DNA from: Arenibacter arenosicollis
GTDB lineage: Bacteria; Bacteroidota; Bacteroidia; Flavobacteriales; Flavobacteriaceae
Assembly (NCBI RefSeq): GCF_014397245.1
Contig: NZ_JACLHY010000016.1
Coordinates: 1 to 64,000 of the forward strand
DNA: 64,000 nt
Direction: 5' to 3'
Shown: positions 11,818 through 46,453 of the stretch, piece by piece
Layout of the letters: the number at the start of each line of letters is the position of its first letter
How positions within the stretch are numbered: position 1 is the first letter of the stretch
Program-made: the position numbers and the translations under genes
Notes under the pieces: model-generated
The model's input: the letters and a program-made list of their open reading frames with translations, nothing else
What the model was told of the DNA's origin: nothing
Databases searched by the model: none

Positions 11818-11931
11818 ATGATGGGAACACCTGATAAAAATCAAAAAGGTAAAAAGGACGACAAAAACAAAAAAAGTGGATCCGCATCCGATAGGAAAGA
11901 CGGAAACAAGAAAAGTCCAACAAAAAAATAG
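11818..11931 (+). CDS. Lysine-rich 37-residue small protein
   Basis: ATG at 11818 (or 11821) to TAG at 11929-11931. The peptide has 12 Lys in 37 residues, plus Asp, Asn, Gly and Ser and no long hydrophobic stretch, so it would be disordered and basic; a nucleic-acid or ribosome contact is possible but not shown. The strong terminator just behind the stop argues that a transcript ends here. Too short for usual gene finders. Confidence 0.6.
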   Translation: MMGTPDKNQKGKKDDKNKKSGSASDRKDGNKKSPTKK

Positions 11932-11953
11932 GGTATAATCCTATTTTTATTCA

Positions 11954-11980
11954 GGCCCGGTATCACCCGGGCCTTTTTTT
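11954..11980 (+). terminator. Strong terminator after the Lys-rich small ORF
   Basis: GGCCCGG (11954-11960) pairs with CCGGGCC (11967-11973), followed by seven T. It lies 22 bases after the small ORF's stop. Confidence 0.9.
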
Positions 11981-12136
11981 ATTTACACCATCTGGAATAC
12001 GGGAAGGGATTAAAAAGCACTTTCTCCCAACTGGAAAAACACTCCTAAGGCGTTTTGTCCCGCTCGAAAATAGTATCCGAAAACATGCTCGCAATACAGA
12101 TACCAAGGTCTCCACCAACCCAGAAAGAAACACTTT

Positions 12137-12916
12137 CTATCTCAGTTTCTCACTCAAATATTTCCAATACCTTTTGGGCACATGCCTGATATGAAGTTTC
12201 ATGTTTTTTCTCGAAGTTATATTGGTACTTTCAAAATAGTCCTGCCAAAGGGTCTGGAATTCCAACTCCTCGTTGGCAAAAAATTCCTTTGAGGTTTTGG
12301 TGGCATCAAAATTCTCCGGAAGGATTAAGTTTATGATATCTACCTTTTCTAAATCGTAGTATAGTCCGTAATTGCGCTTAAGGTCATAGATTACCCATTT
12401 CTGGTCAGCATACCTGCGTTCAAAATGTTTGGATATTAGTGGCAACACGTCAAAATCGGGTTCTATATTTGCAAAATACAATTCATCCTTGGTCAACCTA
12501 AATCGCACGAAAGCCTCCATTCTATGTTTTTCCCTACCCACGCTTTTGGCGATTTGGGTTACTTTTAAAACGTCTTGGTTGGTAAAGTCGGCATCAATTG
12601 GCAATGCGCTTTTTAGTGCATATTGTATATAGCGCAATAATAGATTCTCAATCTGATGCTGTTCACTTAAAAATGCATAGTATAAGCGAGAGCTACCAGT
12701 TGCCGACGTTTTTTTCTTAATGCCTCTCCATACCCGATCTGCTTTTTCCGGATCTGTTAGCACCTCATCCCTCATGGCAAACAAAGAATCCATTGCATGA
12801 CTTTTTGGTTGTATATCCACTTGTTTCAATTTTAAATCATAAACCTGAAACACACAGGTCAAAAACCCATCAAAAGTGCCATCGTACACCAGTATAGATT
12901 CTTTTGGTATTTGCAT
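12137..12916 (-). CDS. DUF4130 / TIGR03915 putative DNA repair protein
   Basis: A 259-residue protein starting YDGTFDGFLTCVFQVYD, the signature of the TIGR03915 family, with KRYWKYLSE at the C-terminus. Family members occur next to a dedicated radical-SAM protein (TIGR03916), exactly as here; a role in DNA repair or base modification is proposed from that pairing and from fusions with uracil-DNA-glycosylase-like domains in other bacteria. The ATG directly abuts the stop codon of the radical-SAM gene, so the two are one operon. Confidence 0.9.
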   Translation of the reverse strand: MQIPKESILVYDGTFDGFLTCVFQVYDLKLKQVDIQPKSHAMDSLFAMRDEVLTDPEKADRVWRGIKKKTSATGSSRLYYAFLSEQHQIENLLLRYIQYALKSALPIDADFTNQDVLKVTQIAKSVGREKHRMEAFVRFRLTKDELYFANIEPDFDVLPLISKHFERRYADQKWVIYDLKRNYGLYYDLEKVDIINLILPENFDATKTSKEFFANEELEFQTLWQDYFESTNITSRKNMKLHIRHVPKRYWKYLSEKLR

Positions 12917-14179
12917 TTAATCAAATAAGTTTAATTGTGGACTCAAGACTTTTTGATATTTGCTCGTAGAGTTTTGAAGTATAAGCGATTTTAATTGTGG
13001 TCCCGTAAGATCACGTCGTTCGAAATTCCGGGATTCACAAATGAGAAAATATTTTGCTCTGTTCAATGCCACGCCCATTCTTTGTAAATGCTCCCAATTA
13101 AGGTTGCGAAAGCGTCTCGCCTCAATAATTTTATATACCGATTTCATTCCCAACCCTGGAACACGGGCCAACATTCTTTTTTCGGCTTTGTTCACATCAA
13201 CAGGGAATTGTTCTAAATTGCGTAGTGCCCAACCTAATTTTGGATCTACTTCCAAATCGAGATTTTGATGTTCTTGGTTTAGAATCTCATGAACTTCAAA
13301 CCCATAAAAACGCATTAACCAATCGGTTTGATACAAACGGTTTTCACGGAGCATGGGAACGGCGGTTCCTATTTGCGGCAGACGAGCATCATAACTGATC
13401 GGAATATATCCAGAATAATACACCCGCTTAAGATTAAATTTCTTGTAGAAGTAGTTGGACGTCCACATTATTTGCTGATCACTCTCGCCACTGGCGCCAA
13501 TAATCATTTGTGTGCTTTGCCCTCCTGGAGCAAATTTTGGTGTGCTCTTAATAAGCTTCTTTTCAGATTTATATAGGATGATTTCGTTTTTGACTTTCAC
13601 CATTGGCTTTATAAAGTCTTCACGCCTTTTTTCGGGTGCCAATAGTTTCAATCCTTCTTCCGTCGGAATCTCAATATTTACACTCAACCTATCGGCATAG
13701 AGGCCTGCTTCCTTCATCAATTCATCGGAAGCGCCAGGAATCGATTTTAGGTGAATGTAACCATTGAAATTTTCTTCCAACCTCAATTTTTTCGCCACTG
13801 CCACCAAGCGTTCCATGGTATAGTCCGCACTTTTGAATATTCCAGAACTCAAAAACAAACCTTCTATATAATTCCGGCGATAAAAATTAATGGTCAGATC
13901 AACAACTTCCTGAACCTGAAAAGCAGCACGTTTTATGTCGTTACTTTTTCTAGTGACGCAATATGCACAATCGAAGATGCAGTAATTGGTCAACAAAATT
14001 TTCAATAGGGATACACACCGACCATCTTCCGTATAGGAATGACAGATGCCCATACCAGTGGCGTCTCCAAGACCTTTGCTTGCATTATTCCGTTTACTCC
14101 CACTGGAAGCACAGGAAACATCATATTTGGCAGCATCTGCGAGTATCTTTAATTTTTCTTGCGTACGTTCAAAAGACAT
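12917..14179 (-). CDS. Radical SAM putative DNA modification/repair protein (TIGR03916)
   Basis: A 420-residue radical-SAM enzyme. The [4Fe-4S] cluster motif is C67-x3-C71-x2-C74 in NYCIFDCAYC. The barrel follows, and near residues 335-365 a helix-hairpin-helix segment (ARVPGLGMKSVYKII) suggests DNA binding. The set of features and the adjacent DUF4130 gene identify the TIGR03916 family. The chemistry is unknown. It is the first gene of the two-gene operon. Confidence 0.9.
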   Translation of the reverse strand: MSFERTQEKLKILADAAKYDVSCASSGSKRNNASKGLGDATGMGICHSYTEDGRCVSLLKILLTNYCIFDCAYCVTRKSNDIKRAAFQVQEVVDLTINFYRRNYIEGLFLSSGIFKSADYTMERLVAVAKKLRLEENFNGYIHLKSIPGASDELMKEAGLYADRLSVNIEIPTEEGLKLLAPEKRREDFIKPMVKVKNEIILYKSEKKLIKSTPKFAPGGQSTQMIIGASGESDQQIMWTSNYFYKKFNLKRVYYSGYIPISYDARLPQIGTAVPMLRENRLYQTDWLMRFYGFEVHEILNQEHQNLDLEVDPKLGWALRNLEQFPVDVNKAEKRMLARVPGLGMKSVYKIIEARRFRNLNWEHLQRMGVALNRAKYFLICESRNFERRDLTGPQLKSLILQNSTSKYQKVLSPQLNLFD

Positions 14180-14717: not shown

Positions 14718-16334
14718 TCAGCTTTTCACGGAGGGCTCAATTTTTATATGGATTGGTTGATTGGCATTTACATCAAAAAGTGGTGTGCCCACGAAATCTG
14801 GATCCATCTTTATAGAGGGTTCACTTTTTAAATAGATCAATGACCCTTCAAAATTGGCGTATTTTTCCCTTAGAGCATTGTACTCGGGATTTACACATTC
14901 CTTTCCCCATATCCCCAACATAAATTTTAAACCTGCTTCGCTTTCGCCATATTGCCCTTTATCATCCGTTTCAACGATCCATTGATCTAATACGGATCGG
15001 TATTTTGTCAATTCTTCCGAATAATCCGAATTCCCGGCCAAATTGTTCAATTCAAAGGGGTCGGCTTTTAAATCGTATAATTCTTCCGAAGGGCGTTCAT
15101 CGGACATAAACTGATCCTGTACCTCATTTAGCTTTCCTTCGGCATGCAATTGTTTCATCACTCCTACGAATTCCACCTTGTCAAAATCCATATAGGTGGG
15201 CTGGGAATAAGGCCTATCCGTCATAAAATTCCGAATATATTTATAATCCTTTGATCGTACAGACCTAATACGGTCTATGGTGAAATCGCAGCGATCCCTG
15301 GTTGAAATTACATATTCCCTTGGTGCAATCGAATCACTAAAGATGTTTCGGCCTTCCATATATTCAGGTACCGGAATACCGGCCAAGGCCATTGAGCTGG
15401 TACCAAGGTCCAAACCACCCACTAGGGCATTATTAACACTGCCCGATTTTAGTTTTTTATTACCTTCCCTAAAATCAGCAATAATCAAGGGTACATGAAG
15501 TCCACCATCATAAAGAAATTGTTTGTTCCTGGTCAAGCGCATACCGTGATCGGAGAAGAAGAAAACAACAGTGTTTTTAAGCAGATCGTTTTCTTTTAAT
15601 TTTGCCATAATTTCACCTACTTTTTCATCGGTGATTTGTATTGCATCCAAGTGGTTGGCGTATTCTTCTACAATTGAAGGGTGATCGGGGAGATATGGAG
15701 GAAGTTGGATTTTAGATCGATCTACAGGGGAAGTGACATTTTCCTTGAACTTGGAATTGAAAATTTCCTTTCCTCCGTACATCTGTATTTGTCCAAAAAA
15801 TGGTTCCTTTCCGGTTAGCGTTGCAAGATCCAATCTCACTCCTCCTTTACCATACAAAGGATGATAGGTATAATCTTGATCATAAAGCTCCCTTCTATCA
15901 TAAATAAAATTATAGTCATCCTTACCATTATTAAATGTAAAGTATCCTTCTTCCTTAAAAAGCTCGGGAATGGTCTTCAAATTCTCCGGCAAATATATCG
16001 CCGATTCCAAAGTCCTTGAACTGTGATGGTTCTGGGCTCCAAAAGTGGTCGCCATCATACCGGTAATAATACTTGAGCGACTGGCCGAACAGACTGGGGC
16101 GGGCATATAAACATTGGTGTATAGAACACCCTTCATAGCAAGGCTGTCAATATTGGGAGTAGCAACAAGTGTCTCGCCATAACTCCCCATAAGCGGAGCG
16201 GTATCCTCCAAATATATCCAAAGGATATTGGGCTTAACGGAATTCTGATCCCCGTCCTTTTTTTGTGCGCTATTATCCTTACAGGATATGATTAAAACGG
16301 CTGAAAAAGAAATTAATAAAATGAATTTTTTCAT
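14718..16334 (-). CDS. Sulfatase lipoprotein (type I, S1 family)
   Basis: A 538-residue sulfatase with a lipoprotein signal (LIISC, C18), so it is probably attached to a membrane. The formylglycine signature is C82-S-A-S-R86 in PVCSASRSSIITG, the C-x-(P/A)-x-R form that needs a formylglycine-generating enzyme. Metal-binding blocks are visible: YLEDTAP near the N-terminus and FFFSDHGMRLTRNKQFLYDGG later. It would remove sulfate esters from sugars, consistent with algal sulfated polysaccharides; the subfamily is not determined. The divergent neighbour is a Tat-exported oxidoreductase. Confidence 0.92.
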   Translation of the reverse strand: MKKFILLISFSAVLIISCKDNSAQKKDGDQNSVKPNILWIYLEDTAPLMGSYGETLVATPNIDSLAMKGVLYTNVYMPAPVCSASRSSIITGMMATTFGAQNHHSSRTLESAIYLPENLKTIPELFKEEGYFTFNNGKDDYNFIYDRRELYDQDYTYHPLYGKGGVRLDLATLTGKEPFFGQIQMYGGKEIFNSKFKENVTSPVDRSKIQLPPYLPDHPSIVEEYANHLDAIQITDEKVGEIMAKLKENDLLKNTVVFFFSDHGMRLTRNKQFLYDGGLHVPLIIADFREGNKKLKSGSVNNALVGGLDLGTSSMALAGIPVPEYMEGRNIFSDSIAPREYVISTRDRCDFTIDRIRSVRSKDYKYIRNFMTDRPYSQPTYMDFDKVEFVGVMKQLHAEGKLNEVQDQFMSDERPSEELYDLKADPFELNNLAGNSDYSEELTKYRSVLDQWIVETDDKGQYGESEAGLKFMLGIWGKECVNPEYNALREKYANFEGSLIYLKSEPSIKMDPDFVGTPLFDVNANQPIHIKIEPSVKS

Positions 16335-19452: not shown

Positions 19453-21105
19453 ATGATGAAATATTTCTTCTTAATTATCTTATTCTTTTCCTATGTCCAA
19501 TTAGTACAGGGACAGACCGAAAGCCCTCTAGAAAATGTAGTGATCACTACCAAAAAGAAAAAAACCCAAGTTTCCACAAATAAAAAAGGCGAATTGCATG
19601 TCAATGTATCCCCTAAGGATGTCCTTAAATTTAAAGCCAAGGGTGTAGTTCACTATAGTGACTTTGGGGCCAGTGGAGACGGGAAAACCGACGATTTGGA
19701 TGCTATCGCTGCAACCCACGCGTTTGCCAATCAGTACGGTCTTAAGGTGAAAGCAGACGAGGGGGCCACCTACTACATTGGAGGAAAGGAACGCACCGCG
19801 ATCATCCAGACCGATACCGATTTCGGCACAGCTTCCTTCCTCATTGACGATACCGAAGTTGAAAACAACAAAGCTTCTATTTTCTTGGTAAGTTCCAGCC
19901 TACAACCGTTTAAACTTGAGGGGATATCTTCGCTTAAAAAAAATCAAGAGAAAATCGACGTCTCCCTACCAACATCCTGTCTGATCACGGTTACAAATTC
20001 CAACCAAAAGCACTATATCCGCTATGGGCTGAACCAAGACAATGGATCCACTCAAACAGATATCTTTGTTGTTGATAAAAACGGCAATGTAGATTTGGAT
20101 GCTCCCATTATATGGGACTTCGATCAGATTACCGATGTAACTGCCCTACCCTTGGACGAGGTAACGCTAACCATCAGCGGAGGTCGGTTTACCACCATTG
20201 CCAACAAGGCTGAATCCAAGTATAATTATTATAGCCGCAATATAATGATCAAGCGTTCCAATGTAGTTTTGGATGGGCTGGAACACCGTATCATTGGGGA
20301 AGGAGATCATGGCGCGCCCTATGGCGGTTTCATCACTGTTCGTGACTGCGCTTATATAATGGTTAAGAACTGTATCCTGACGGGACACAAAACCTACAGC
20401 ACCATTGGTTCGGCGGGGAAGCCCGTCTCCATGGGTACTTACGACATTTTGGTCAACCGTGCCCTTAATGTATCATTTGTTAACTGTAGTCAGACCAATG
20501 ATATCAACGACAAAACTTATTGGGGAATACAGAGTTCCAATTACTCCAAAAATCTTGTCTATGACAATTGTACCTTTTCCAGGTTTGATGCCCACAAAGG
20601 GGTTGCCAATGCCTCTATCAAGAACTCTACTTTAGGACATATGGGAATCAATGCCATTGGCAGTGGGCTCTTGACCGTTGAGAACACTACTATCCAAGGA
20701 AGGAACCTAATCAACCTACGCTCTGACTACGGCAGTACATGGCAGGGAGACATCGTTATCCGTAACTGTGTTTTTGTACCTGAAGGAGGCAAGCTAACCA
20801 GTGCCAGCTTAATTGGTGGTTCCTATTCCGGGCAGCACGATTTTGGCTACACCTGTTATATGCCCGAACAGATCACCATAGAAAATCTTCATATAGATGA
20901 TTCCAATCATCCAGAAGATTACCTTGGTCCAGCCATTTTTAAGGATTTCAATGAAGAAATGACCGATGATTCCTATCAAGAGAAGTTTCCATATATCATA
21001 ACCAATGAAATTTTTCTTAGGAATGTTACCACTGCCAGCGGCAAGGACTTGATAATAAGCAGTAATCCGTTCATGTTCAAGGATGTGAAAGTCTCTACTT
21101 ATTAA
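19453..21105 (+). CDS. Secreted right-handed beta-helix protein (pectate-lyase-3-like)
   Basis: A 550-residue protein with a signal peptide (1-20, ending VQGQ). The block VHYSDFGASGDGKTDDLDAI is the classic start of Pectate_lyase_3 / tailspike-type beta-helices. Rungs follow with repeated Asn/Val ladders (SFVNCSQTNDIND, VYDNCTFSRFDAH, IKNSTLGHMG). The fold is that of polysaccharide lyases and some GH28-like hydrolases; the catalytic residues cannot be assigned. Position next to sulfatase and oxidoreductase suggests a polysaccharide target. Confidence 0.8.
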   Translation: MMKYFFLIILFFSYVQLVQGQTESPLENVVITTKKKKTQVSTNKKGELHVNVSPKDVLKFKAKGVVHYSDFGASGDGKTDDLDAIAATHAFANQYGLKVKADEGATYYIGGKERTAIIQTDTDFGTASFLIDDTEVENNKASIFLVSSSLQPFKLEGISSLKKNQEKIDVSLPTSCLITVTNSNQKHYIRYGLNQDNGSTQTDIFVVDKNGNVDLDAPIIWDFDQITDVTALPLDEVTLTISGGRFTTIANKAESKYNYYSRNIMIKRSNVVLDGLEHRIIGEGDHGAPYGGFITVRDCAYIMVKNCILTGHKTYSTIGSAGKPVSMGTYDILVNRALNVSFVNCSQTNDINDKTYWGIQSSNYSKNLVYDNCTFSRFDAHKGVANASIKNSTLGHMGINAIGSGLLTVENTTIQGRNLINLRSDYGSTWQGDIVIRNCVFVPEGGKLTSASLIGGSYSGQHDFGYTCYMPEQITIENLHIDDSNHPEDYLGPAIFKDFNEEMTDDSYQEKFPYIITNEIFLRNVTTASGKDLIISSNPFMFKDVKVSTY

Positions 21106-25427: not shown

Positions 25428-28064
25428 ATGGCATATTTGACCCCGAAAATTGCTGAGGAAGAAAGACTGGCAGTACCCGACAACTACAAAAATTGGAAAA
25501 AATGGGGGCCCTATTTGGCCGAAAGGCAATGGGGTACTGTTAGGGAAGATTATAGTGCTCAAGGAGACGCATGGAATTTTGTAGATCATGATAAAGCACG
25601 TAGTAATGCCTATAGATGGGGTGAAGAAGGTATAGGCGGATTTTGCGACTCTAGGGAGATTTTATGTCTGGCACCTGCCTTTTGGAATGGTAAGGACGAC
25701 ATTTTAAAAGAACGCTTATTTGGTCTCACAAATAATCAAGGGAATCATGGCGAGGATGTCAAGGAACTTTATTTTCATCAGGTATCCACACCTACACACT
25801 CCTACAGCAAATATTTATATAAGTATCCACATAAGAAATTTCCGTATGTGGACTTGGTCAAAAACAATAAAAGAAGTCGGGATGAAGCGGAATATGAGCT
25901 ATTGGACACGCCTAGTTTTAAGAAAAATGCCTATTTCGATTGTTTTATAGAATATGCCAAAGCCGATGTGGACGATATTCTCATGAAGATCACCATAGTA
26001 AACAGAGGTCGTAAAAGGGCAAATATCCATGTTTTGCCACACCTTTGGTTCAGGAATTTTTGGAAACACAACAAACGCTTTAGTCGCCCGCGAATTAAAT
26101 CAATTGCCGATAATTGCGTGCAATCCCGAAGCATTAGAAACGGCCGACATTATTTTTATCATGAAAATGGCAAACAGCTTTTCTGTGAAAATGAAACCAA
26201 CAATAAGCGTATTTATAATGTACCCAATGAGGTGGAGTATGTTAAAGATGGAATTAACGATCATGTCATAAACGGCAAGCGCACCGTTAACCCTGAAAAG
26301 AATGGCTCCAAATCGGCCATCTGGCACAAATTTAAGCTAAAGGCCGGAGAAGAAAAGAGTATAAGGGTACGTCTCAGTAAAAAGAAATTGCAAGATCCCT
26401 GGGCAGATTTTGATGCTATATTTGAGGAAAGGATAAAGGAATGTGAGGAATTTTATGATAGCAAACTAAAGAAAAACTTGCCTGAAACCCACCAAAAGAT
26501 AGCCAAAAGTGCCTTCTCAGGTTTGTTGTGGACCAAGCAATTCTATTACTATGATGTCTTTAAATGGCTTTTTGGAGGACCAGGTGAGCCAAAACCAAAT
26601 AGGATCAGTGCCAGGAATTTTAGTTGGCAACATCTTACCAATAGGCATGTAATATCTATGCCGGATAAATGGGAATATCCCTGGTATGCGGCTTGGGACC
26701 TTGCTTTTCATATGGTTTCCTTTGCTGAAATAGACCCCTATTTTGCCAAAGAACAATTACTACTTGTACTACGGGAAAGCTATATGCACCCCAACGGACA
26801 AATTCCTGCCTACGAATGGAACTTTAGCGACGTTAACCCTCCCGTCCATTCCTGGGCGGTTTGGAACGTGTATGAAAAGGACCAACAAAGGAATGGTAAA
26901 GGAGATACTAAGTTTTTGGAAAATGCTTTTCAAAAACTACTTATCAATTTTACTTGGTGGGTAAACCAAAAGGATAAACACGGTACAGATCTCTTTGAAG
27001 GCGGTTTTTTGGGGCTAGATAATATTGGCGTGTTCGATCGGAATCATATGCCACATGGCGTTAGTAGAATGCAACAAGCCGATGCCACCAGTTGGATGGC
27101 TATGTTTACCGTAAATATGCTGCGTATGTCACTGGAATTGGCGAAGACCAATAAAGTTTATGAGGAGTCCGCGGCCAAATTCTTTAGACATTTCCTAAAT
27201 ATTGCCTGGGCCATGCACCATATAGGGAAAAAAGATATCTCACTTTGGGATGATGAGGATGATTTTTATTACGACGTAGTTGAGCTGTCCTCAGGTGAAA
27301 CGAGCCGATTGAAAGTGAGGTCCTTAGTAGGTATCATACCTTTATTTGCTGTAGAGATAATACATAAGGATCTCTTTGAACAATTAAAGGAATTTAAAAT
27401 AAGAGCTGTCGATATTATTAGAACCCGGCCAGATTTAGCCTCTTTAATCTCCAATATTGAAGAGACCAATAAGGATGGCAACTATCTTTTTTCGATTATG
27501 CGCGCCTATAGGTTGGAAAAGCTCCTGAAACGGCTCTTGGACGAAGATGAATTTCTTTCGGACTATGGTATTAGATCCCTATCCAAATACCACAAGGATC
27601 ATCCTTTTGTATTTCAACACAATGGCCATTATAGCATTCACTATGAACCAGGGGAGAGTCGTTCCAATATGTTCGGGGGCAACTCAAATTGGCGAGGGCC
27701 CATATGGATGCCATTGAATTATATGATCATCCAATCTTTGCGAAAATATTATACGTTTTACGGACCAACTTACCAATATGAATTTCCCACTGGATCGGGT
27801 ATTAAATTAAACTTAAAGGAAATAGCCAATGAGCTTACCAAGAGGTTGGTAAAACTTTTTGAGCGGAACACTGAAGGCAAATTTCAATATCACGCAGATG
27901 ATCCCAATAACTTATTCTCGAAAGATGAGCACTTTAAGAACCAACATCTGTTTTACGAATTTTTTGATGGCGATAATGGTAAAGGGTTGGGTGCTTCGCA
28001 TCAAACGGGATGGACAGCATTGATCGCCAATCTCATCATGGAAATGGAAGAATCCGAGTCCTAA
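25428..28064 (+). CDS. GH63-like (MGH1-type) glycosidase, cytoplasmic
   Basis: An 878-residue protein without signal peptide. The N-terminus (PYLAERQWGTVREDYS) and the region YAAWDLAFHM (W423, D424) with AYEWNFSDVNPPVHSWA (E463) are characteristic of the (alpha/alpha)6 catalytic domain of GH63/mannosylglycerate-hydrolase-like proteins; the end FFDGDNGKGLGASHQTGW matches the late catalytic region. It would release glucose or a glycerate-linked sugar in the cytoplasm. The length and N-terminal beta domain fit the large family members. It stands alone; the next gene begins about 200 bases later. Confidence 0.85.
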   Translation: MAYLTPKIAEEERLAVPDNYKNWKKWGPYLAERQWGTVREDYSAQGDAWNFVDHDKARSNAYRWGEEGIGGFCDSREILCLAPAFWNGKDDILKERLFGLTNNQGNHGEDVKELYFHQVSTPTHSYSKYLYKYPHKKFPYVDLVKNNKRSRDEAEYELLDTPSFKKNAYFDCFIEYAKADVDDILMKITIVNRGRKRANIHVLPHLWFRNFWKHNKRFSRPRIKSIADNCVQSRSIRNGRHYFYHENGKQLFCENETNNKRIYNVPNEVEYVKDGINDHVINGKRTVNPEKNGSKSAIWHKFKLKAGEEKSIRVRLSKKKLQDPWADFDAIFEERIKECEEFYDSKLKKNLPETHQKIAKSAFSGLLWTKQFYYYDVFKWLFGGPGEPKPNRISARNFSWQHLTNRHVISMPDKWEYPWYAAWDLAFHMVSFAEIDPYFAKEQLLLVLRESYMHPNGQIPAYEWNFSDVNPPVHSWAVWNVYEKDQQRNGKGDTKFLENAFQKLLINFTWWVNQKDKHGTDLFEGGFLGLDNIGVFDRNHMPHGVSRMQQADATSWMAMFTVNMLRMSLELAKTNKVYEESAAKFFRHFLNIAWAMHHIGKKDISLWDDEDDFYYDVVELSSGETSRLKVRSLVGIIPLFAVEIIHKDLFEQLKEFKIRAVDIIRTRPDLASLISNIEETNKDGNYLFSIMRAYRLEKLLKRLLDEDEFLSDYGIRSLSKYHKDHPFVFQHNGHYSIHYEPGESRSNMFGGNSNWRGPIWMPLNYMIIQSLRKYYTFYGPTYQYEFPTGSGIKLNLKEIANELTKRLVKLFERNTEGKFQYHADDPNNLFSKDEHFKNQHLFYEFFDGDNGKGLGASHQTGWTALIANLIMEMEESES

Positions 28065-28117: not shown

Positions 28118-28262
28118 CCTGTATTTAAGGACCTTAATTCCACCTAATTTATTATCTTTCTACGGTGGTAGGGAATCATTACCAATTTCTTCCACTTAAA
28201 ATAAAAGCATGCTCCCCCGTATTGCTACAATGTTGAACACAAACCAATCCAAAAGATTAAGA

Positions 28263-29549
28263 ATGAAAATTTTCACTTCCCTTGTGTGCTTTCTCCTTTT
28301 TAGCACTTATTTAATTGCACAACCCCGCCAAGAACTTGTAGAAGTCATTGTAAGTCCAAACCATTCCGATTGGACCTACTCTATTGGGGAACAGGCCGAG
28401 TTTACAATTTTAGTTTATAGAAACAATGTAGCTCTGGACGATATCGAAATTAAGTACACCGTTCAACCAGATCCTGGATACCGTACCTTAAAAATTTGGG
28501 ATGAGGGCACGCGAACCCTTAAGAACAATTCCACAAAAATTAAAGCTAAAAAGTTCAGCGAACCAGGATTTCTCCGTTGTACAGCAACCGTTGAAGTAGA
28601 TGGGAAGGAGTATTCATCCTATACTACGGTAGGTTTTGCACCAGACAAAATACAGCCTACGACCACCTTACCGAAAGATTTTGAAGCGTTTTGGAATAAA
28701 GGCAAGGAAGAATTGAATCAAGTACCTATGAACGCGGTACTCACTTTGATGCCCGAACGCTGCACGGACAAGGTAGATGTATACCATGTGCAATTGGACA
28801 ATATAAAAGGAAAAATCTATGGCATTTTAACCAAACCCAAAAAAACTGGTAAGTACCCTGCCATTCTACACGTGCCCGGTGCGGGCATACGGCCCTATTA
28901 TGGGGAAATTGACGAAGCTGCGGAAGGTTTTATCTCCTTTACTATTGGTATCCACGGCATTCCCGTAAACCTGGATCAAAGCGTTTATGATGCTCTTGGT
29001 AAAGGGGCCCTGAACGGTTACCAGACCTTTAATTTGGATGATAGGGATAATGCCTACTACCGCCGTGTATATCTTGGTTGTGTTAGAGCCGTAGATTTTA
29101 TAGAAAGTGTGGACGGTTTCAATGGCGAAGATATTGCAGTTACCGGTGGTAGCCAAGGCGGTGCGCTTTCCATAGTCACCGCAGGTTTGGATGATAGAAT
29201 TGATTATCTGGCGGCCTTTTACCCCGCCCTATCCGATATGACTGGATTTTTACATGGACGTGCCGGAGGTTGGCCACAGATTTTCGTAGACGACTTCACC
29301 AATAAAACAGAGAAAATAGAAGTTTCCAAGTATTATGATGTTGTAAATTTTGCACGCTTTGTAAAAGTACCGGGCTGGTACAGTTGGGGGTATAATGACA
29401 ATGTATGCCCCCCTGCCTCTACCTATTCCGCCTATAATGTATTAACGGCCCCAAAGGAGCTACATCTTTTTCAAAAGACTCAGCATTGGACCTACCCGGA
29501 ACAACAGGAATTGAGAAAAAAATGGCTAATAGCCAAGCTTAAAAAATAA
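28263..29549 (+). CDS. Secreted acetylxylan-esterase-like protein (CE7-like)
   Basis: A 428-residue protein using ATG 28263, which starts a good signal peptide (ending LIAQ); the longer start at 28209 would bury it. An N-terminal beta-sandwich (to about residue 130) precedes the alpha/beta hydrolase with nucleophile elbow GGSQGGALS and a late TQHWTYPEQQ supplying the His. The helix EAFWNKGKEELNQVP is typical of AXE1 (PF05448). It would remove acetyl groups from sugars. A Gfo/Idh/MocA gene follows on the same strand. Confidence 0.88.
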   Translation: MKIFTSLVCFLLFSTYLIAQPRQELVEVIVSPNHSDWTYSIGEQAEFTILVYRNNVALDDIEIKYTVQPDPGYRTLKIWDEGTRTLKNNSTKIKAKKFSEPGFLRCTATVEVDGKEYSSYTTVGFAPDKIQPTTTLPKDFEAFWNKGKEELNQVPMNAVLTLMPERCTDKVDVYHVQLDNIKGKIYGILTKPKKTGKYPAILHVPGAGIRPYYGEIDEAAEGFISFTIGIHGIPVNLDQSVYDALGKGALNGYQTFNLDDRDNAYYRRVYLGCVRAVDFIESVDGFNGEDIAVTGGSQGGALSIVTAGLDDRIDYLAAFYPALSDMTGFLHGRAGGWPQIFVDDFTNKTEKIEVSKYYDVVNFARFVKVPGWYSWGYNDNVCPPASTYSAYNVLTAPKELHLFQKTQHWTYPEQQELRKKWLIAKLKK

Positions 29550-34116: not shown

Positions 34117-35520
34117 ATGAGAGAGACTCAAAATGTAACAAAACTTGAAACTGACTATTTGATTGTAGGATCTGGTGCCGTGGGCATGGCTTTCGCTGAT
34201 GTTATCCTATCGGAAACGGATGCCAACATGATAATAGTCGATAAATTCCATAAGCCTGGTGGACATTGGAACCTTGCATATTCATTTGTAAAACTACACC
34301 AGCCGTCTGCATATTATGGCGTAAGTTCAGAAGACCTGGGAAAAGATGACACAGATAAAGTTGGAGTTAATAAAGGTTTGAGACATCTTTCTTCAGGTGC
34401 TGAGATTAGTGCCTATTATGATGATGTCATGCAACGTAAATTCTTGCCAAGTGGCCGGGTAAAATATTTTCCATTGTGCGAATATCAGGGTGAAAACAAA
34501 TTTGTATCAACTCTAACCGGAAGGTCTTATACAGTAAAGGTGAATAAAAAAAATGTGAATGCCGCCCACATGCAAACCAAGGTTCCTTCCACACATACTC
34601 CCAACTTCAGCATTTCACCAGAGGTTCAGTTTATTGCGATCAATGATTTACCAAAAGTAGGGAAGCCACCTGCCGGCTGGATTGTAATAGGGGGTGGCAA
34701 GACGGGCGTTGATGCTATTATTTGGTTACTCGAACACCAGGTTGATCCTGCAAAAATCACCTGGATTGTTCCAAGAGATTCTTGGTATACCGATCGAAAG
34801 AATATACAGCCATCTGAAGAGTTTCTTAAATATTTTCTCAATGATCAGCTTGCTCAGTTAAAAGCTTTGGAACAAGCAGAATCAGTCACAGATTTGTTTG
34901 ACAAGCTTGAGAAATCAGGTGTACTATTGCGGATAGACAAGAAGGTAAGACCAAAAATGCATCGCGGGGCCACTATAAGCCAGCTTGAATTAAAACAGCT
35001 CAGGCGGGTTAAGAATATTGTTCGTATGGGCCGTATCAAGCGTATCGAAAAAGATGGGATTATTCTTGAAAGAGGAAGGATTGACAATGACCCAAACCAT
35101 ATTTTCGTAGACTGTTCTGCAAATGCTCTTGCCCATTTAGATAATACACCAATTTTTTCAGGTAACACCATTACCCTACAGCCGGTAAGAGGGGGACAGA
35201 TTGTGTTTAGTGCGGCCTTCATTGCACATGTTGAAGCCGACTATAAAGAAGAAATACAAAAAAATAAACTCTGTGGGGTAGTCCCATTACCCAACCACGA
35301 TACAGATTGGATAAAAATGTTTGCTGGGTCAATGAAAAATCAACATAACTGGAAAAAGGATCCCGAATTGACAAAATGGCTTTACAACAATAGATTGGAT
35401 GGCTTCAGTCATTTGGTGGCAAATATTTCAGAGAAAGATGAAGAAATGCAGGCGATTTTAAAACGTTTACGCAACAGCATTAAACCGGCCATGATAAATC
35501 TCGAAACACTACTTTCCTAG
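34117..35520 (+). CDS. FAD/NAD(P)-dependent oxidoreductase (flavin monooxygenase-like)
   Basis: A 467-residue soluble flavoprotein with two dinucleotide-binding motifs: VGSGAVGMAFAD near residue 17 for FAD and VIGGGKTGVDA near residue 191 for NAD(P). The segment KPGGHWNLAYSFVKLHQPS is typical of NAD(P)-binding flavin monooxygenase-like proteins. The C-terminal helix is Lys/Arg-rich. It is flanked on both sides by gene-poor DNA, which suggests a recent arrival. Substrate unknown. Confidence 0.85.
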   Translation: MRETQNVTKLETDYLIVGSGAVGMAFADVILSETDANMIIVDKFHKPGGHWNLAYSFVKLHQPSAYYGVSSEDLGKDDTDKVGVNKGLRHLSSGAEISAYYDDVMQRKFLPSGRVKYFPLCEYQGENKFVSTLTGRSYTVKVNKKNVNAAHMQTKVPSTHTPNFSISPEVQFIAINDLPKVGKPPAGWIVIGGGKTGVDAIIWLLEHQVDPAKITWIVPRDSWYTDRKNIQPSEEFLKYFLNDQLAQLKALEQAESVTDLFDKLEKSGVLLRIDKKVRPKMHRGATISQLELKQLRRVKNIVRMGRIKRIEKDGIILERGRIDNDPNHIFVDCSANALAHLDNTPIFSGNTITLQPVRGGQIVFSAAFIAHVEADYKEEIQKNKLCGVVPLPNHDTDWIKMFAGSMKNQHNWKKDPELTKWLYNNRLDGFSHLVANISEKDEEMQAILKRLRNSIKPAMINLETLLS

Positions 35521-40486: not shown

Positions 40487-40842
40487 ATGCATCATATAAC
40501 GCAATGCAATTTCAGTACGGTAATCAACAACTGATTCCCGGATCACAGTACATGCTCCCACGGTTAGGAACGGTCCCCTCAATAAGTTTCGCAACATGCA
40601 CCAACCAAGTTTTTCTTTAAAATTTTAGGTAACAAGTTGTTATCCTGTGCAGCAGGGGCTTTACGCTCTTACAAGTTTTTCTTTTCAATATCCAGGTCGT
40701 AAACTACTAACTATATCATATAGTGTGTATCTAGCGGAACCTCCGATTCCCTTCTCCTAAGATTATAAATTAATCTAAAGTGCTATCTTTAAATCAACAA
40801 TCAAAACATTCGAGCCGAGGCCATGGCAACAACCTAAAGAAA
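40487..40842. other. Intergenic region before the hydrolase gene
   Basis: About 350 bases without a gene. The left half is locally GC-richer (40530-40580). No terminator or -7 box was convincing. Confidence 0.4.
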
Positions 40843-41814
40843 ATGAGGGAGAACAGAAAATACATCATTTTGATTGGAATAGCAGCATTCCTCTTTGTTG
40901 GGTACTTTATTGCCGATAATATGCTTTTCAACGGAATAAAACCCAACGCCATAAACGAAAATGGCTTTCAAGCCAACTTCTTTGTGAATAAAAATACAAA
41001 GAGCAAAGCTGCAGTAATTCTAATCGGCGGAGGACAATGGGGAGATTACTGGGCACAACAATTTGCCAAAAAAGAAATGGTCGGTTTGTCTATACCTTAC
41101 ACAGGAAAAGAAGGTTTACCAAGATTACCTGAAGAAATTGAATTGGAATACTTTGAAAACGCCATTAATTGGCTTAGAGAACGTCCTGAAGTTGACCCAA
41201 ATAAAATAGTTGTTATGGGGGCGTCAAGAAATGCTGAATTGGCGTTGGTAATTGCTTCAACATTCCCCGAATATATTAGCGGAGTTGTTGCCTATGCACC
41301 CAGCTCTGTTTCTTGGTCAAATACAGTTTTACCCTACAATTCCAATCAAATGAAAGCGAGCTGGAAATATAAAGGGGTTGATATTCCATACGTACCAATG
41401 AATAAAATCATGGGAAATGAAACTAATAAAATTAAAATGGTGGATTATTGGACTAATGGTTTAGCAAAAATAGAAATCGTTCAACAAGCAGCCATCAAAG
41501 TAGAAAAGATCAATGGACCCATACTACTTTTTTCAGGAAACGATGATAAGGTTTGGCCATCATCAATTATGGCGGATATGATAGAAAAGAGATTGGAAGT
41601 CAATAATTTTGAACATTCCTTTCAGAATATAAAATATGACAACGCTGGACACTTAATTTCAGGTAATCCCGATGATAATTCCAGTTATAGAACTGCAATA
41701 ATCAATATTAACAGAAAAGATTATGAATATGAATTTGGCGGAAATGATGATGGTGATATTAAAGCAAAACAAGATGCCAAATTAAAATTGATGGAATTCA
41801 TGGAAAAGATATAA
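40843..41814 (+). CDS. Membrane-anchored BAAT-like acyl hydrolase
   Basis: A 323-residue protein using ATG 40843 (the start at 40780 adds an unlikely tail). An N-terminal membrane segment (IILIGIAAFLFVGYFI) is followed by an alpha/beta hydrolase resembling the C-terminal domain of bile-acid-CoA acyltransferases: IGGGQWGDYWA, NWLRERPEVDPNKIVVMG and the elbow GASRNAE. The usual GxSxG is GxSxN here, so the Gly is replaced. LLFSGNDDKVWPS gives the acid and NAGHLIS the His. The last 144 bases are duplicated at 44890-45033. Confidence 0.8.
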   Translation: MRENRKYIILIGIAAFLFVGYFIADNMLFNGIKPNAINENGFQANFFVNKNTKSKAAVILIGGGQWGDYWAQQFAKKEMVGLSIPYTGKEGLPRLPEEIELEYFENAINWLRERPEVDPNKIVVMGASRNAELALVIASTFPEYISGVVAYAPSSVSWSNTVLPYNSNQMKASWKYKGVDIPYVPMNKIMGNETNKIKMVDYWTNGLAKIEIVQQAAIKVEKINGPILLFSGNDDKVWPSSIMADMIEKRLEVNNFEHSFQNIKYDNAGHLISGNPDDNSSYRTAIININRKDYEYEFGGNDDGDIKAKQDAKLKLMEFMEKI

Positions 41815-42020: not shown

Positions 42021-43424
42021 ATGAAAACAAAACTTGTCATTGTTATTGTTGGTTTCTTATTACTATTCGCGTGCAGCACAAAAAAATCCAATCAACCACT
42101 TGAAATTAATGAAACAGGCAAAACCGAAACCATTGAACAAGTTATAGAAATTGACAGTGTATGGGCAGGTCATCCCGTTGGGTTTAGCCTATATACGCAT
42201 GGAAACAGACAGTATATAGCTTATTACAATGCCAACCGCAACTTGGTGGTTGGACAAAGAAATCTTGAGGATGAGAACTTTGATTTGCATATAATGCCTC
42301 CAACAAGTCGCGAAACTTCTGGCGGCACAAGTACTGTTTTGGGATGGGACAGTCACAATTCTGTTACTCTTGGAGTCGATAAAGATGGGTTCATTCATCT
42401 TTCCGGGAACATGCATACGAATCCCATTACTTATTTCAAGAGCAAACATGCCAACGATATATCCTCACTCGTACAGGAGATGGAAATGATTGGGACCGAT
42501 GAGAAAAAAAGTACCTATCCTAATTTTATGCTAACGAAAGATGGGGAGTTGATTTTTCATTATCGCGATGGCGGTAGTGGAAATGGCAACGAGATTTATA
42601 ATATCTATTCATGCGAAAATAAAACCTGGTCCAGAATGCTGGATGTTCCATTAACGGACGGACAAGGATTGATGAATGCATACCAAACACAACCAACTGT
42701 TTTAAAGGATGGTTGGTATCATGTTTATTGGGTTTGGCGAGATACTCCTGATTGTGAGACGAATCATGATCTATCGTACATGAGGAGCCCGGATTTGAAA
42801 AACTGGTTTGATGCTTTTGGCGGAAAAATTGCATTACCTGCCACTTTGGATAATAAGTTATTGATTGTTGATCCAATTCCCGTAAAAGGAGGAATCATTA
42901 ATTTGGCAGCTAGACTCTGTTTGGATGAAAATAACAACCCGGTATTTGTCTATCATAAATATGATTCTGATGGAAACCTGCAGATATACGCTGCGCACAT
43001 AAATGATAAAAAATGGATTCATAATCAAGTGACCAATTGGGACTATCGCTGGGAGTTTTCAGGTCGCGGAAGTATCAATGTTGAATTTCGTTTCAAAGGT
43101 TTCAATATAAGAAAGGATGGTTATTACGAAGTTGGTTATTGGCATACGAAATACGGAAATGGGACTATTTTGCTGAACAATAAATTTGAAAATATTGGGA
43201 AGGTGTTGAAACCTGAACCATTTGACTCAAGTCTGGAAATTGAAGGAGACTTTCCTGGTTTATTGGTCAAAACCCGTGAAGACATTGGGACTATCAGTGA
43301 AAAAAGCCTTAGATACATTCTCAAATGGGAAACACTCAACAGCAACCGGGATTTGCCACGTGAAAAACCCTGGCCCAAACCAAGCCAGCTGGTTTTGTAT
43401 AAATTAAAGAAAACTAAAGAGTAA
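42021..43424 (+). CDS. BNR_4 beta-propeller lipoprotein, possible PL24/PL25-like lyase
   Basis: A 467-residue lipoprotein (lipobox LLFAC, C18). The BNR_4-type propeller starts with GHPVGFSLYTHGNRQYIAYY. Conserved polar residues lie on the expected face: H112 in DSHNSV, H132 in GNMHTN, Y166 in STYPNF and R182 in FHYRDGG. The H-to-H distance (20) and Y-to-R distance (16) agree with what I remember for ulvan lyases of PL24/PL25, which use His, Tyr and Arg on such a propeller. I therefore infer a polysaccharide lyase, without proof of substrate. It is followed by two more propeller genes. Confidence 0.78.
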   Translation: MKTKLVIVIVGFLLLFACSTKKSNQPLEINETGKTETIEQVIEIDSVWAGHPVGFSLYTHGNRQYIAYYNANRNLVVGQRNLEDENFDLHIMPPTSRETSGGTSTVLGWDSHNSVTLGVDKDGFIHLSGNMHTNPITYFKSKHANDISSLVQEMEMIGTDEKKSTYPNFMLTKDGELIFHYRDGGSGNGNEIYNIYSCENKTWSRMLDVPLTDGQGLMNAYQTQPTVLKDGWYHVYWVWRDTPDCETNHDLSYMRSPDLKNWFDAFGGKIALPATLDNKLLIVDPIPVKGGIINLAARLCLDENNNPVFVYHKYDSDGNLQIYAAHINDKKWIHNQVTNWDYRWEFSGRGSINVEFRFKGFNIRKDGYYEVGYWHTKYGNGTILLNNKFENIGKVLKPEPFDSSLEIEGDFPGLLVKTREDIGTISEKSLRYILKWETLNSNRDLPREKPWPKPSQLVLYKLKKTKE

Positions 43425-43521: not shown

Positions 43522-44811
43522 ATGATGACAAAACTATTTCAACTACAAAAAATAGCAGTAATAAAATGTTTTATGTTCCTGTTTATCTTGCATTTTCAAA
43601 ATTTAATGGCACAAACAAGTAGTGTTAAAGAAACAAATTATCAAAGAATTGAAAATGCCGAACATATTGTTGTTTACCAAGAAGAAAACAAATTCCTTGG
43701 ATGGCCGGCAAATAATGGGGCATGGTCTGCTGATGGGGTGAACATGCTCGTCGGGTTTACTCATGGAGATTATGAACTTATCAGAGACAATCACAACATT
43801 GGAGGAAATCAAATAAGTTGGCTGGCTAGAAGTACTGATATGGGGCAAACCTGGGAAGGATATGATCCAGTTGGTTATGTCGGGGACTTTGGTAAGGAAC
43901 AGGAACCGCAAATATTGGAAAAACCTATAGACTTTTCGCACCCTCAGTTTGCTATGCGCATAGTGGGCGCTTCTTACCATGGAGCCCAAGATGAACGAGC
44001 ACATTACTTCTTTTCTTATGATGCAGGTAAGTCGTGGAGTGCACCCTATCGTTTTGGTGTTGATGATATCCGGGAGTGGCCCGAATTGAAAAACACCACT
44101 TTACCTGATCAAACTGAGTTAACTCCGAGAACAGATTATGTGGTGGAAGGAAAGGATGAATGCCTTATATTTATGTCTGTTCGTGAAAAAGGGAAATTCG
44201 GAACAGACCGGCTTTTTTGTATTCGTACCCTTGACGGAGGAAAGACTTTTAAGTTCGTGGGCTGGGTTGTACCACCTTTTGATGAAAGGAAGGTCGATCT
44301 TTCTGTAAAAATAAAATTGGAAGAAGACGATGCCCAAAATCCCCATCCAGATCAAAGCCGTGCCGTGATGTCCCAGACCGTCAGACTTGAAAACGGTAAG
44401 TTGATATGTGCAATGCGCCGAAGGTATAATAAACATAATTGGGTGGACGCATATGCTTCCCAAGATGGTGGCGTCTCTTGGGCATTCCTGTCAGAAGTTG
44501 GAGATGCGGGAGCAGGTAATGGAAATCCGCCCGCACTCAATATAACGGACAAGGGAAGACTGGTTGCAATTTTCGGCAACAGAGAAGAACCGGGGACTAT
44601 GATGGTTGTATACAGCGACACTGAAGGAGCCTCCTGGAGCAAACCAAAGATAATAAGGGATGGTTATGGATCAGTGGATATGGAGACTATTGATCTAGGA
44701 TACCCACAACTACTTCGACGTAAAGACGGCAAGATGGTCGCTCTTTATTATTGGTCTACCAAAGATTACCTCCACCATATTGCCGCAACAATATGGGATG
44801 CGGATAAATAG
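43522..44811 (+). CDS. Secreted sialidase-like BNR-repeat protein
   Basis: A 429-residue protein with a signal peptide (about 1-31, ending LMAQ). At least five Asp-box-like turns are visible: STDMGQTWEG, SYDAGKSWSA, TLDGGKTFKF, SQDGGVSWAF and SDTEGASWSK, so the fold is a six-bladed sialidase-type propeller. An Arg triad of true sialidases cannot be assigned with certainty (R-rich CAMRRRY). It could be an exo-glycosidase or a lyase-like binder. Same strand, 97 bases after the preceding propeller gene. Confidence 0.82.
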   Translation: MMTKLFQLQKIAVIKCFMFLFILHFQNLMAQTSSVKETNYQRIENAEHIVVYQEENKFLGWPANNGAWSADGVNMLVGFTHGDYELIRDNHNIGGNQISWLARSTDMGQTWEGYDPVGYVGDFGKEQEPQILEKPIDFSHPQFAMRIVGASYHGAQDERAHYFFSYDAGKSWSAPYRFGVDDIREWPELKNTTLPDQTELTPRTDYVVEGKDECLIFMSVREKGKFGTDRLFCIRTLDGGKTFKFVGWVVPPFDERKVDLSVKIKLEEDDAQNPHPDQSRAVMSQTVRLENGKLICAMRRRYNKHNWVDAYASQDGGVSWAFLSEVGDAGAGNGNPPALNITDKGRLVAIFGNREEPGTMMVVYSDTEGASWSKPKIIRDGYGSVDMETIDLGYPQLLRRKDGKMVALYYWSTKDYLHHIAATIWDADK

Positions 44812-45187: not shown

Positions 45188-46453
45188 ATGAAGAACAGAG
45201 GAGGTGGTTATGATTTAAATAGACGGAAATTCCTAAAATCCTCTTTGATAGGAGGAATTACATTGGCCAGTATTCCTTCCCTTTACAGTTGTAAGAAAGA
45301 GGACTTGGACTATTTCCTGGCTTTAAATGTTCCCACCAAACTGTTTGATGGTAAAAGATGCTGGTGTCATCCCCGGGCGGGAATTGTCCCGGGGGCAGGT
45401 GAAAATAGTAACCCCAAAGTGGTAATGACCATGAACAAATTGGATCTGGCAGGGAGCGACGTTTTCTATGGTATGTATGGATTGGATACAGATAATCTGG
45501 CAAAGAACTGGACCACACCAAAAGAATTGAAAACATTGGCTCCACGGTTCGAAGTAATTGATGGTATTGAGCGGCCCGTAGCCATAAGCGACTTTTCACC
45601 AAAATGGCATACTGCTACAAAAACTTTGCTGGGCGTAGGGCATACCGTTGCTTATACGCCCAACTGGAAAATTACAAATCCAAGGCCCAGAAACACGTCC
45701 TATTCAATTTATGACATGCACAAGAATGAATGGAGTGATTGGGAAAAATTAATAATGCCAGATGAAGTAAAATTTTATAATGCCGGTGCTGGTTGCGTTC
45801 AACGCTATGATCTGGAGAATGGTGAAATCTTGCTCCCCATATATTTTCGACCAGAAGGAAAAAATTCAAGGGTTACAGTTTGTAAGTGTTCTTTTAACGG
45901 AAAAAAGCTGGAATATCTTTCCCATGGAACTGAATTGGAATTAAATGACGACACACGTGGATTGGGAGAACCTTCATTGACAAAATTTAAGAATGATTTT
46001 TTTCTGACCATTCGAAATGATAAAAAAGGCTTTGTGGCGCGAAGTAAGGATGGAGTGAATTTTGACAAATACCAGCCTTGGACGTTTGATGATGGAACGG
46101 AGCTTGGAAGTTACAATACACAACAACATTGGGTTACACATAGTGAAGGATTATTTCTGGTCTATACTCGAAAAGGGGCAGATAACGATCATGTATTTCG
46201 TCATAGGGCACCCCTTTTTATGGCTGAGGTGGACCCTGAAAATTTATGTGTGATCAGAGCTACGGAACAGATTCTTGTCCCGGAAAGAGGTGCACGCCTA
46301 GGAAATTTTGGTATTGTAGATGTATCCCTTGATGAATCTTGGGTTACTGTTTCCGAATGGATGCAACCTGAAGGTGTTGAAAAATATGGTAGTGATGGAA
46401 GTGTTTTCGTAGCGAAGATTAATTGGAATCGACCAAATCGACTTTTTTCCTAA
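45188..46453 (+). CDS. Tat-exported lipoprotein with sialidase/GH-like propeller
   Basis: A 421-residue protein whose N-terminus has a twin-arginine motif (NRRKFLKSS) and a lipobox (SLYSC, C35), so it is probably exported folded and lipidated. The body has propeller strands such as FVARSKDGVNFDKYQPW and EGLFLVYTRKGADND, as in exo-alpha-sialidase-like proteins of polysaccharide loci. No catalytic set is assigned. It is the third propeller in a row, each with a different export signal. Confidence 0.75.
   Translation: MKNRGGGYDLNRRKFLKSSLIGGITLASIPSLYSCKKEDLDYFLALNVPTKLFDGKRCWCHPRAGIVPGAGENSNPKVVMTMNKLDLAGSDVFYGMYGLDTDNLAKNWTTPKELKTLAPRFEVIDGIERPVAISDFSPKWHTATKTLLGVGHTVAYTPNWKITNPRPRNTSYSIYDMHKNEWSDWEKLIMPDEVKFYNAGAGCVQRYDLENGEILLPIYFRPEGKNSRVTVCKCSFNGKKLEYLSHGTELELNDDTRGLGEPSLTKFKNDFFLTIRNDKKGFVARSKDGVNFDKYQPWTFDDGTELGSYNTQQHWVTHSEGLFLVYTRKGADNDHVFRHRAPLFMAEVDPENLCVIRATEQILVPERGARLGNFGIVDVSLDESWVTVSEWMQPEGVEKYGSDGSVFVAKINWNRPNRLFS

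Follow-up and report, generated by a model that had tools for sequence, protein, structure and literature searches.

A BNR_4 propeller protein of Arenibacter arenosicollis as a predicted uronate lyase, probably of a subfamily beside PL42

Which reaction is catalyzed by the BNR_4 protein encoded at positions 42021..43424 (forward strand) of the Arenibacter arenosicollis DNA analysed here, a stretch of 64,000 nucleotides referred to as the window? BNR_4 proteins are present in 30 of 296 sampled genomes of the phylum, and the solved chain of BT3686 still carries the label "Neuraminidase". A preliminary description made from the window alone took the protein for a polysaccharide lyase, possibly of a new subfamily, with a residue set spaced like that of ulvan lyases. 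We consider it rather probable (about 0.77) that the protein is a beta-eliminating uronate lyase, namely a glucuronate lyase of a subfamily sister to PL42 (formerly GH145) with a changed -1 pocket. This reading is based on homology, the invariance of the catalytic set, the predicted fold, the clade to which the protein belongs, and the genomic partners of its relatives.

Predicted fold and similarity to PL42

The region 42021-43424 is one uninterrupted open frame of 467 amino acids, and its reverse complement in frame 1 contains many stops. The BNR_4 match (E 1.3e-86) covers residues 63-340. A signal peptide (42021..42074, +), read by eye from the translation, ends in LFAC, which resembles a lipobox with Cys18; the protein is thus predicted to be secreted and probably lipid-anchored. 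The AlphaFold2 (AF2) model, with a mean predicted local distance difference test score (pLDDT) of 90.1, shows the seven-bladed beta-propeller that characterizes PL42.

Sequence searches matched the characterized members 5muk (E 1.1e-43) and 7esk (E 5.7e-17), and profile searches matched the same structures with E 1.3e-86 and 8.5e-32, respectively, a significant similarity over the catalytic domain. Alignment by hhalign to the canonical PL42 alignment gave a probability of 100, and identity to 15 canonical rows was 29–38 percent over the aligned part. GH145/PL42 structures were also the best matches of the AF2 model in both Foldseek and VIA-align. The nearest solved relatives are therefore BT3686 and FoRham1 and not the PL25 ulvan lyases. 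Sialidases were not the closest structural matches, so that the earlier exclusion of a sialidase holds.

An endo-acting ulvan lyase of PL25 or PL24 is highly improbable, as GH145/PL42 proteins are far better matches in both sequence and structure. No PL25 chain was among the matches of the protein at E up to 1 in sequence and profile searches. In PL25 (PLSV_3936, 5uam; SH2L_Ulv3), the zinc-binding histidine lies four residues past the neutralizing arginine (H208 after R204; PMC13193363); counted from R182 rather than aligned directly with PL25, this position is S186, an invariant serine in the clade, and together with the weak similarity it led us to reject PL25 membership. The PL24 ulvan lyase LOR_107 and Uly1 appear far less similar to the protein than PL42, and LOR_107 is stated to use another neutralizer, Arg259 (PMC8377490). 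A parallel to PL37 was likewise rejected: PMC8511951 describes PL37 as a dehydratase with proposed Asp/Arg/Lys catalysis, and the P29 dehydratase of Formosa agariphila, predicted via PL37, differs from our protein in this proposed mechanism.

A maximum likelihood tree of 91 rows was calculated by a quick method, with support from the Shimodaira-Hasegawa-like approximate likelihood ratio test (SH-aLRT) and without bootstrap. In it, a branch with SH-aLRT 98 separates a clade made up of the window protein and 52 relatives from 19 canonical PL42 rows, those of BT3686 and FoRham1 among them; FoRham1 and several other rows are on long branches and their placement is unsure. One alignment of the clade took in, besides the window protein, 52 of the 65 loci; L001, L002, L014, L015, L019 and L027 were omitted, as were the cut or frame-broken L047, L053, L056, L057, L061, L062 and L065. 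The protein scored 195.1 bits against the NCBIfam equivalog model AlphRhmnaseBT3686, under its cut-off of 700 bits, compared to 794.1 bits for the canonical control L068. By sequence, the clade probably represents a distinct, uncharacterized subfamily sister to PL42, in line with the suggestion of a possibly new subfamily. In the same tree, L084, a long row from another group, lands within PL42.

Conservation of the anterior site

FoRham1 provides the template for the putative active site. In its description (PMC8377490), the glucuronate side comprises H85 (base and acid), H105, Y150, R166 (neutralizer), Y202, R220 and S170; Y26, N275, Q276, R331 and E381 are on or near the rhamnose side, and mutants of H85, H105, Y150, R166 and R220 are reported to be strongly impaired. 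Nine of these positions could be mapped by alignment, and eight of them keep their residue. They correspond, all on the forward strand, to H112 (42354..42356; base/acid H85), H132 (42414..42416; H105), Y166 (42516..42518; Y150, and Y143 of BT3686 as given in PMC8406133), R182 (42564..42566; the carboxylate neutralizer R166), S186 (42576..42578; S170), Y221 (42681..42683; Y202, a carboxylate contact), R240 (42738..42740; R220, which distorts the glucuronate ring) and N294 (42900..42902; N275, a rhamnose contact). Thus, the PL42 catalytic set and the counterparts of Y202, R220 and S170 are complete, and the same anterior residues (H, H, Y, R, S, Y, R, N) align with PL42 proteins such as BT3686, BACINT_00347, BACCELL_00856 and FoRham1, with which the protein also shares the seven-bladed propeller.

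Conservation was counted in a clade alignment of 66 rows (the window protein and 65 relatives, some of them fragments), considering the rows with a letter at the respective position. H112 is invariant in 65/65, H132 in 64/64, Y166 in 65/65 and R182 in 65/65 rows, and all eight retained positions are invariant, as compared to 101 of 467 positions in the whole protein. Free variation of the four residues in homologs, which would have spoken against a lyase, was hence not observed, and homology to PL42 together with the invariant set supports the lyase proposed at the outset. It also leaves little room for a catalytically dead, lectin-like propeller that merely binds uronic sugars, a reading we find scarcely credible; even the ninth mapped position, that of Q276, is an invariant leucine.

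The preliminary description had based its assignment on H112, H132, Y166 and R182, which are indeed present at these positions with distances of 20 (His to His) and 16 residues (Tyr to Arg). It had also given the same distances for PL25, correctly according to PMC13193363 (H123/H143 and Y188/R204), but they recur in FoRham1 (H85/H105 and Y150/R166; PMC8377490) and in BT3686 (H90/H110, and Y143 with an arginine 16 residues downstream in its sequence; numbering from PMC8406133), so that the spacing does not discriminate between these families. The residues are conserved as claimed, but not all of them are on turns: in the AF2 model, Y166 is part of a strand (164-171) and R182 is the end of another (177-182).

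BT3686 is described as having a posterior hydrolase site around His48 in addition to the anterior lyase site (PMC8406133), which raises the question whether the protein could be an alpha-L-rhamnosidase of the GH145 type, acting through its posterior face, or bifunctional like BT3686. H60 (42198..42200, +) aligns with H48 within a similar T-H-G stretch; however, just 44 of the 62 clade rows with a letter there have a histidine, the others having N, Q, K, D, S, Y, R or E. The pattern of conservation thus points to the lyase face and not to this hydrolase residue, the posterior histidine being variable and the anterior set invariant. According to PMC8406133, the histidine is similarly lost within GH145, and it is the anterior site that is conserved there. 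On the evidence of this one posterior residue, we rejected GH145 hydrolysis as the main activity, and regard a posterior-face or bifunctional enzyme as very improbable.

The leaving-sugar pocket

The side of the cleft that would hold the leaving sugar differs from PL42. L295 (42903..42905, +) replaces the rhamnose contact Q276 and is specific to the clade, with leucine in 63/63 clade rows compared to glutamine in all 16 canonical PL42 rows. The arginine of a PxxRP motif and the glutamate of a WEP motif, both invariant in the 16 canonical rows, have no aligned counterpart in the protein: the hhalign alignment has gaps at the former and stops before the latter, and Y26 is outside the profile alignment. 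The PxxRP arginine corresponds to R333 of BT3686, and the R333A variant is listed as inactive on wine arabinogalactan protein in PMC8406133. As judged from the alignments, the leaving-sugar (-1) pocket is altered relative to PL42. The clade also conserves R343, W344, R364, H375 and K435-E437, which are candidates for contacts with the -1 sugar.

These differences bear on the possibility that the protein is a functional PL42 enzyme of known specificity, i. e. an exo-acting L-rhamnose-alpha-1,4-D-glucuronate lyase that attacks Rha-GlcA ends of arabinogalactan-type or ulvan-derived chains. Retention of the mappable catalytic and glucuronate-side residues and of N294 would suit such an enzyme; the leucine in place of Q276, the two motifs without aligned counterpart and the bit score far below the cut-off of the BT3686 model would not.

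Gene neighbourhoods of the relatives

Genes surrounding the relatives were clustered across loci (designated by L-numbers), and each cluster was named from one or two representatives. The PL35-like group contains heparinase-like proteins with PL35 as the nearest family (8khv, E 1.3e-102), the PL12-like group matches heparinase III (5jmd, E 3.5e-37), and the PL8 group matches chondroitinase AC (1hm2, E 1.2e-82). A further cluster belongs to an alginate-lyase family and is presumably PL38-like. Other clusters comprise GH88, sulfatases, sulfatase-GH78 fusions, UxuA and UxaC, besides SusC and SusD clusters named by eye.

On a map of 65 loci (including the window and the canonical L064, with L065 missing), PL35-like genes occur in 29, PL12-like genes in 19 and PL8 genes in 18 loci, and 36 loci have at least one lyase cluster. 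When counted by cluster profiles, with the window and L065 included and L064 left out, a lyase is present in 38 of 65 loci; among the 31 relatives flanked by 8 kb on either side, a lyase cluster is present in 18. All these numbers rest on clusters and miss lone genes such as that of the DUF4962/heparinase protein of L036. The adjacent gene on the same strand codes for a PL8-, PL12-, PL35- or PL38-like lyase in 35 of 63 relatives, i. e. the 65 relatives except the canonical PL42 locus L064 and L065, whose frame is unassigned; the window is not counted. The same lyase profiles had no match in the 20-kb neighbourhoods of 15 canonical PL42 genes, although a GH88-type gene is present in eight of these neighbourhoods. 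Fisher's test of 35/63 versus 0/15 gave p 5.8e-5; it makes no correction for kinship, and the flanks compared differ in length. L122, a clade member recovered by a separate domain search, is surrounded by two PL35-like, one PL8-like and one further heparinase-like gene.

The partner lyases, not found near the 15 canonical genes, thus argue further against a PL42 enzyme of known specificity. On the other side, fusions of sulfatase-rhamnosidase size (at least 1000 amino acids) occur in 11 loci, with the sulfatase-GH78 architecture confirmed for two, and a close relative is encoded in the genome of A. arenosicollis itself; they would fit rhamnose in the substrate. P36, such a fusion of Formosa, attacks 3-sulfated rhamnose (Rha3S) ends of ulvan oligosaccharides according to PMC8511951, and the sulfatase-GH78-size fusions and GH88-type genes near some relatives resemble the ulvan pathway of F. 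agariphila. On balance, we consider the known PL42 specificity unlikely.

Among the loci, L011, L012 and L034 each contain seven or eight PL8-, PL12-, PL35- or PL38-like lyase genes within about 20 kb. In L023, from a metagenome-assembled genome titled Spirosoma fluviale, a gene of the PL35-like cluster is located directly upstream of the relative; a PL35 enzyme has been reported from a species of this name (PMC12088678). Another BNR_4 family is found repeatedly in the clade loci L007, L010, L011, L018, L019, L021, L028 and L029, and in the genome of A. arenosicollis at L103:9172-10584 (contig C1). It keeps a histidine (H116) and the tyrosine of a T-Y-P stretch (Y166), has a lysine (K182) at the position of the neutralizing arginine, and lacks a conserved histidine 20 residues past H116, where R136 is found. 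Its similarity to PL25 is weak (E 0.0015), and the mean pLDDT of its AF2 model (65.4) was too low for a fold search.

Proposed reaction and substrate

What we infer from these observations is the reaction itself, its occurrence at chain ends or on oligosaccharides, and the nature of the polymer; the chemistry is taken by analogy from FoRham1, and action at chain ends rather than mid-chain from PL42. A 4-linked glucuronate would bind in the anterior cleft, where R182 together with Y221 would neutralize its carboxylate and R240 would strain the ring. With H132 and Y166 tuning it, H112 would take the C5 proton and pass it to the leaving O4 in a syn beta-elimination, yielding the leaving sugar and a 4,5-unsaturated glucuronate end, which a GH88-type hydrolase could then remove. 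The enzyme probably acts at a late stage, on oligosaccharides derived from a marine polysaccharide that is sulfated, rich in glucuronate and in part contains rhamnose.

Both the altered -1 pocket and the divergent partners hint that the sugar released may not be plain rhamnose. The GAG-type (glycosaminoglycan-type) lyases and the rhamnose- and sulfate-directed enzymes point to conflicting substrates, but the two clues would be reconciled by a heteropolysaccharide that carries sulfate, glucuronate and some rhamnose. More tentatively, and at slightly less than even odds, we propose a new specificity: an exolyase with the PL42 centre and a pocket rebuilt, e. g. for 3-sulfated rhamnose or hexosamine, which would trim the non-reducing ends of the products of PL8-, PL12- or PL35-like lyases. 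If so, sulfatase and rhamnosidase steps could be bypassed.

Several observations weigh against a glucuronate lyase of a PL42-sister subfamily as outlined here. The structural fit to GH145/PL42 is moderate, with Foldseek TM-scores of 0.60–0.65 (by query length) at a root-mean-square deviation (rmsd) of about 5–6.6 Å, and a VIA rmsd of 4.2–4.5 Å. No lyase cluster was found in the stretch covered in 29 of the 65 loci on the map, which counts the window and L064, nor in 13 of the 31 relatives with two 8-kb flanks. The partner names depend on so few representatives, and the partners themselves disagree, PL8, PL12 and PL35 being GAG-like and the sulfatase-rhamnosidase fusions ulvan-like. Moreover, the gene is an orphan here: none of the genes between 30001 and 56000 of the window belongs to a cluster of lyases, SusC/D or GH88, and since the immediate neighbours differ even among Arenibacter loci, the genomic context is borrowed from the relatives.

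While the fold, the catalytic centre and the reaction type are already known, no description of the clade, the altered pocket or the locus partners was recognized in a literature search with thin coverage of subscription journals; in the literature searched, these appear to be new. The clade offers a test case in which the PL42 lyase centre is retained and a rhamnose contact is changed, and many loci of the relatives pair the clade gene with glycosaminoglycan-type lyases that lack an evident natural marine substrate. Knowledge of the released sugar would help to identify what these loci degrade, and would illustrate how specificity shifts in a propeller lyase. The orphan gene also becomes readable through relatives whose pathway is clustered.

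Surroundings in the window and partner genes elsewhere in the genome

Relatives of the partner genes are scattered over six of the 77 contigs of the A. arenosicollis genome (C1, C8, C12, C24, C28 and C34; L102–L106 and L126). On C8, a PL12-like (heparinase III) gene at 65160-67208 (L102:3161-5209), sharing 67 percent identity with its L010 counterpart, is located 1.2 kb to the right of the window and about 22 kb downstream of the predicted lyase gene. PL35-like, SusD and SusC genes are found together on C12 (69, 69 and 61 percent identity to the partners), and this PL35-like gene is the one that stays with SusC/D among the partners examined. A second PL35-like gene (48 percent) is on C24, the partner BNR_4 gene (72 percent) on C1, a GH88 gene (70 percent) on C28, and a protein of sulfatase-GH78 size, 83 percent identical over 1173 amino acids to one encoded beside the relative in L020, on C34. 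All three genes of the heparinase family that were detected in this genome belong to these partner groups. A search for PL8 gave no match in this genome, and a first run had been without match in control genomes as well; as the same search matched in three of four genomes reached via the loci, the fourth (L003, Arenibacter aquaticus) having none, absence of PL8 from A. arenosicollis is likely.

The genes next to the predicted lyase code for a BAAT_C-type hydrolase (40780-41814), a BNR_2 protein (43522-44811), and a secreted protein that appears to carry a twin-arginine translocation (TAT) type signal and has no Pfam match (45188-46453). They were not used to name the function, because their counterparts are not all present near the gene in other Arenibacter loci; in the close relative L001, the counterpart of the third gene is split over two frames (11833-12651 and 12648-13130). 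Open frames of 550 and 467 amino acids without Pfam match at E 0.001 are located at 19453-21105 and 34117-35520 of the window. Sulfatase (14718-16334, reverse strand), GH63/MGH1-like (25428-28064) and acetyl-xylan-esterase-type (28209-29549) genes are also present, and possibly belong to another glycan pathway.
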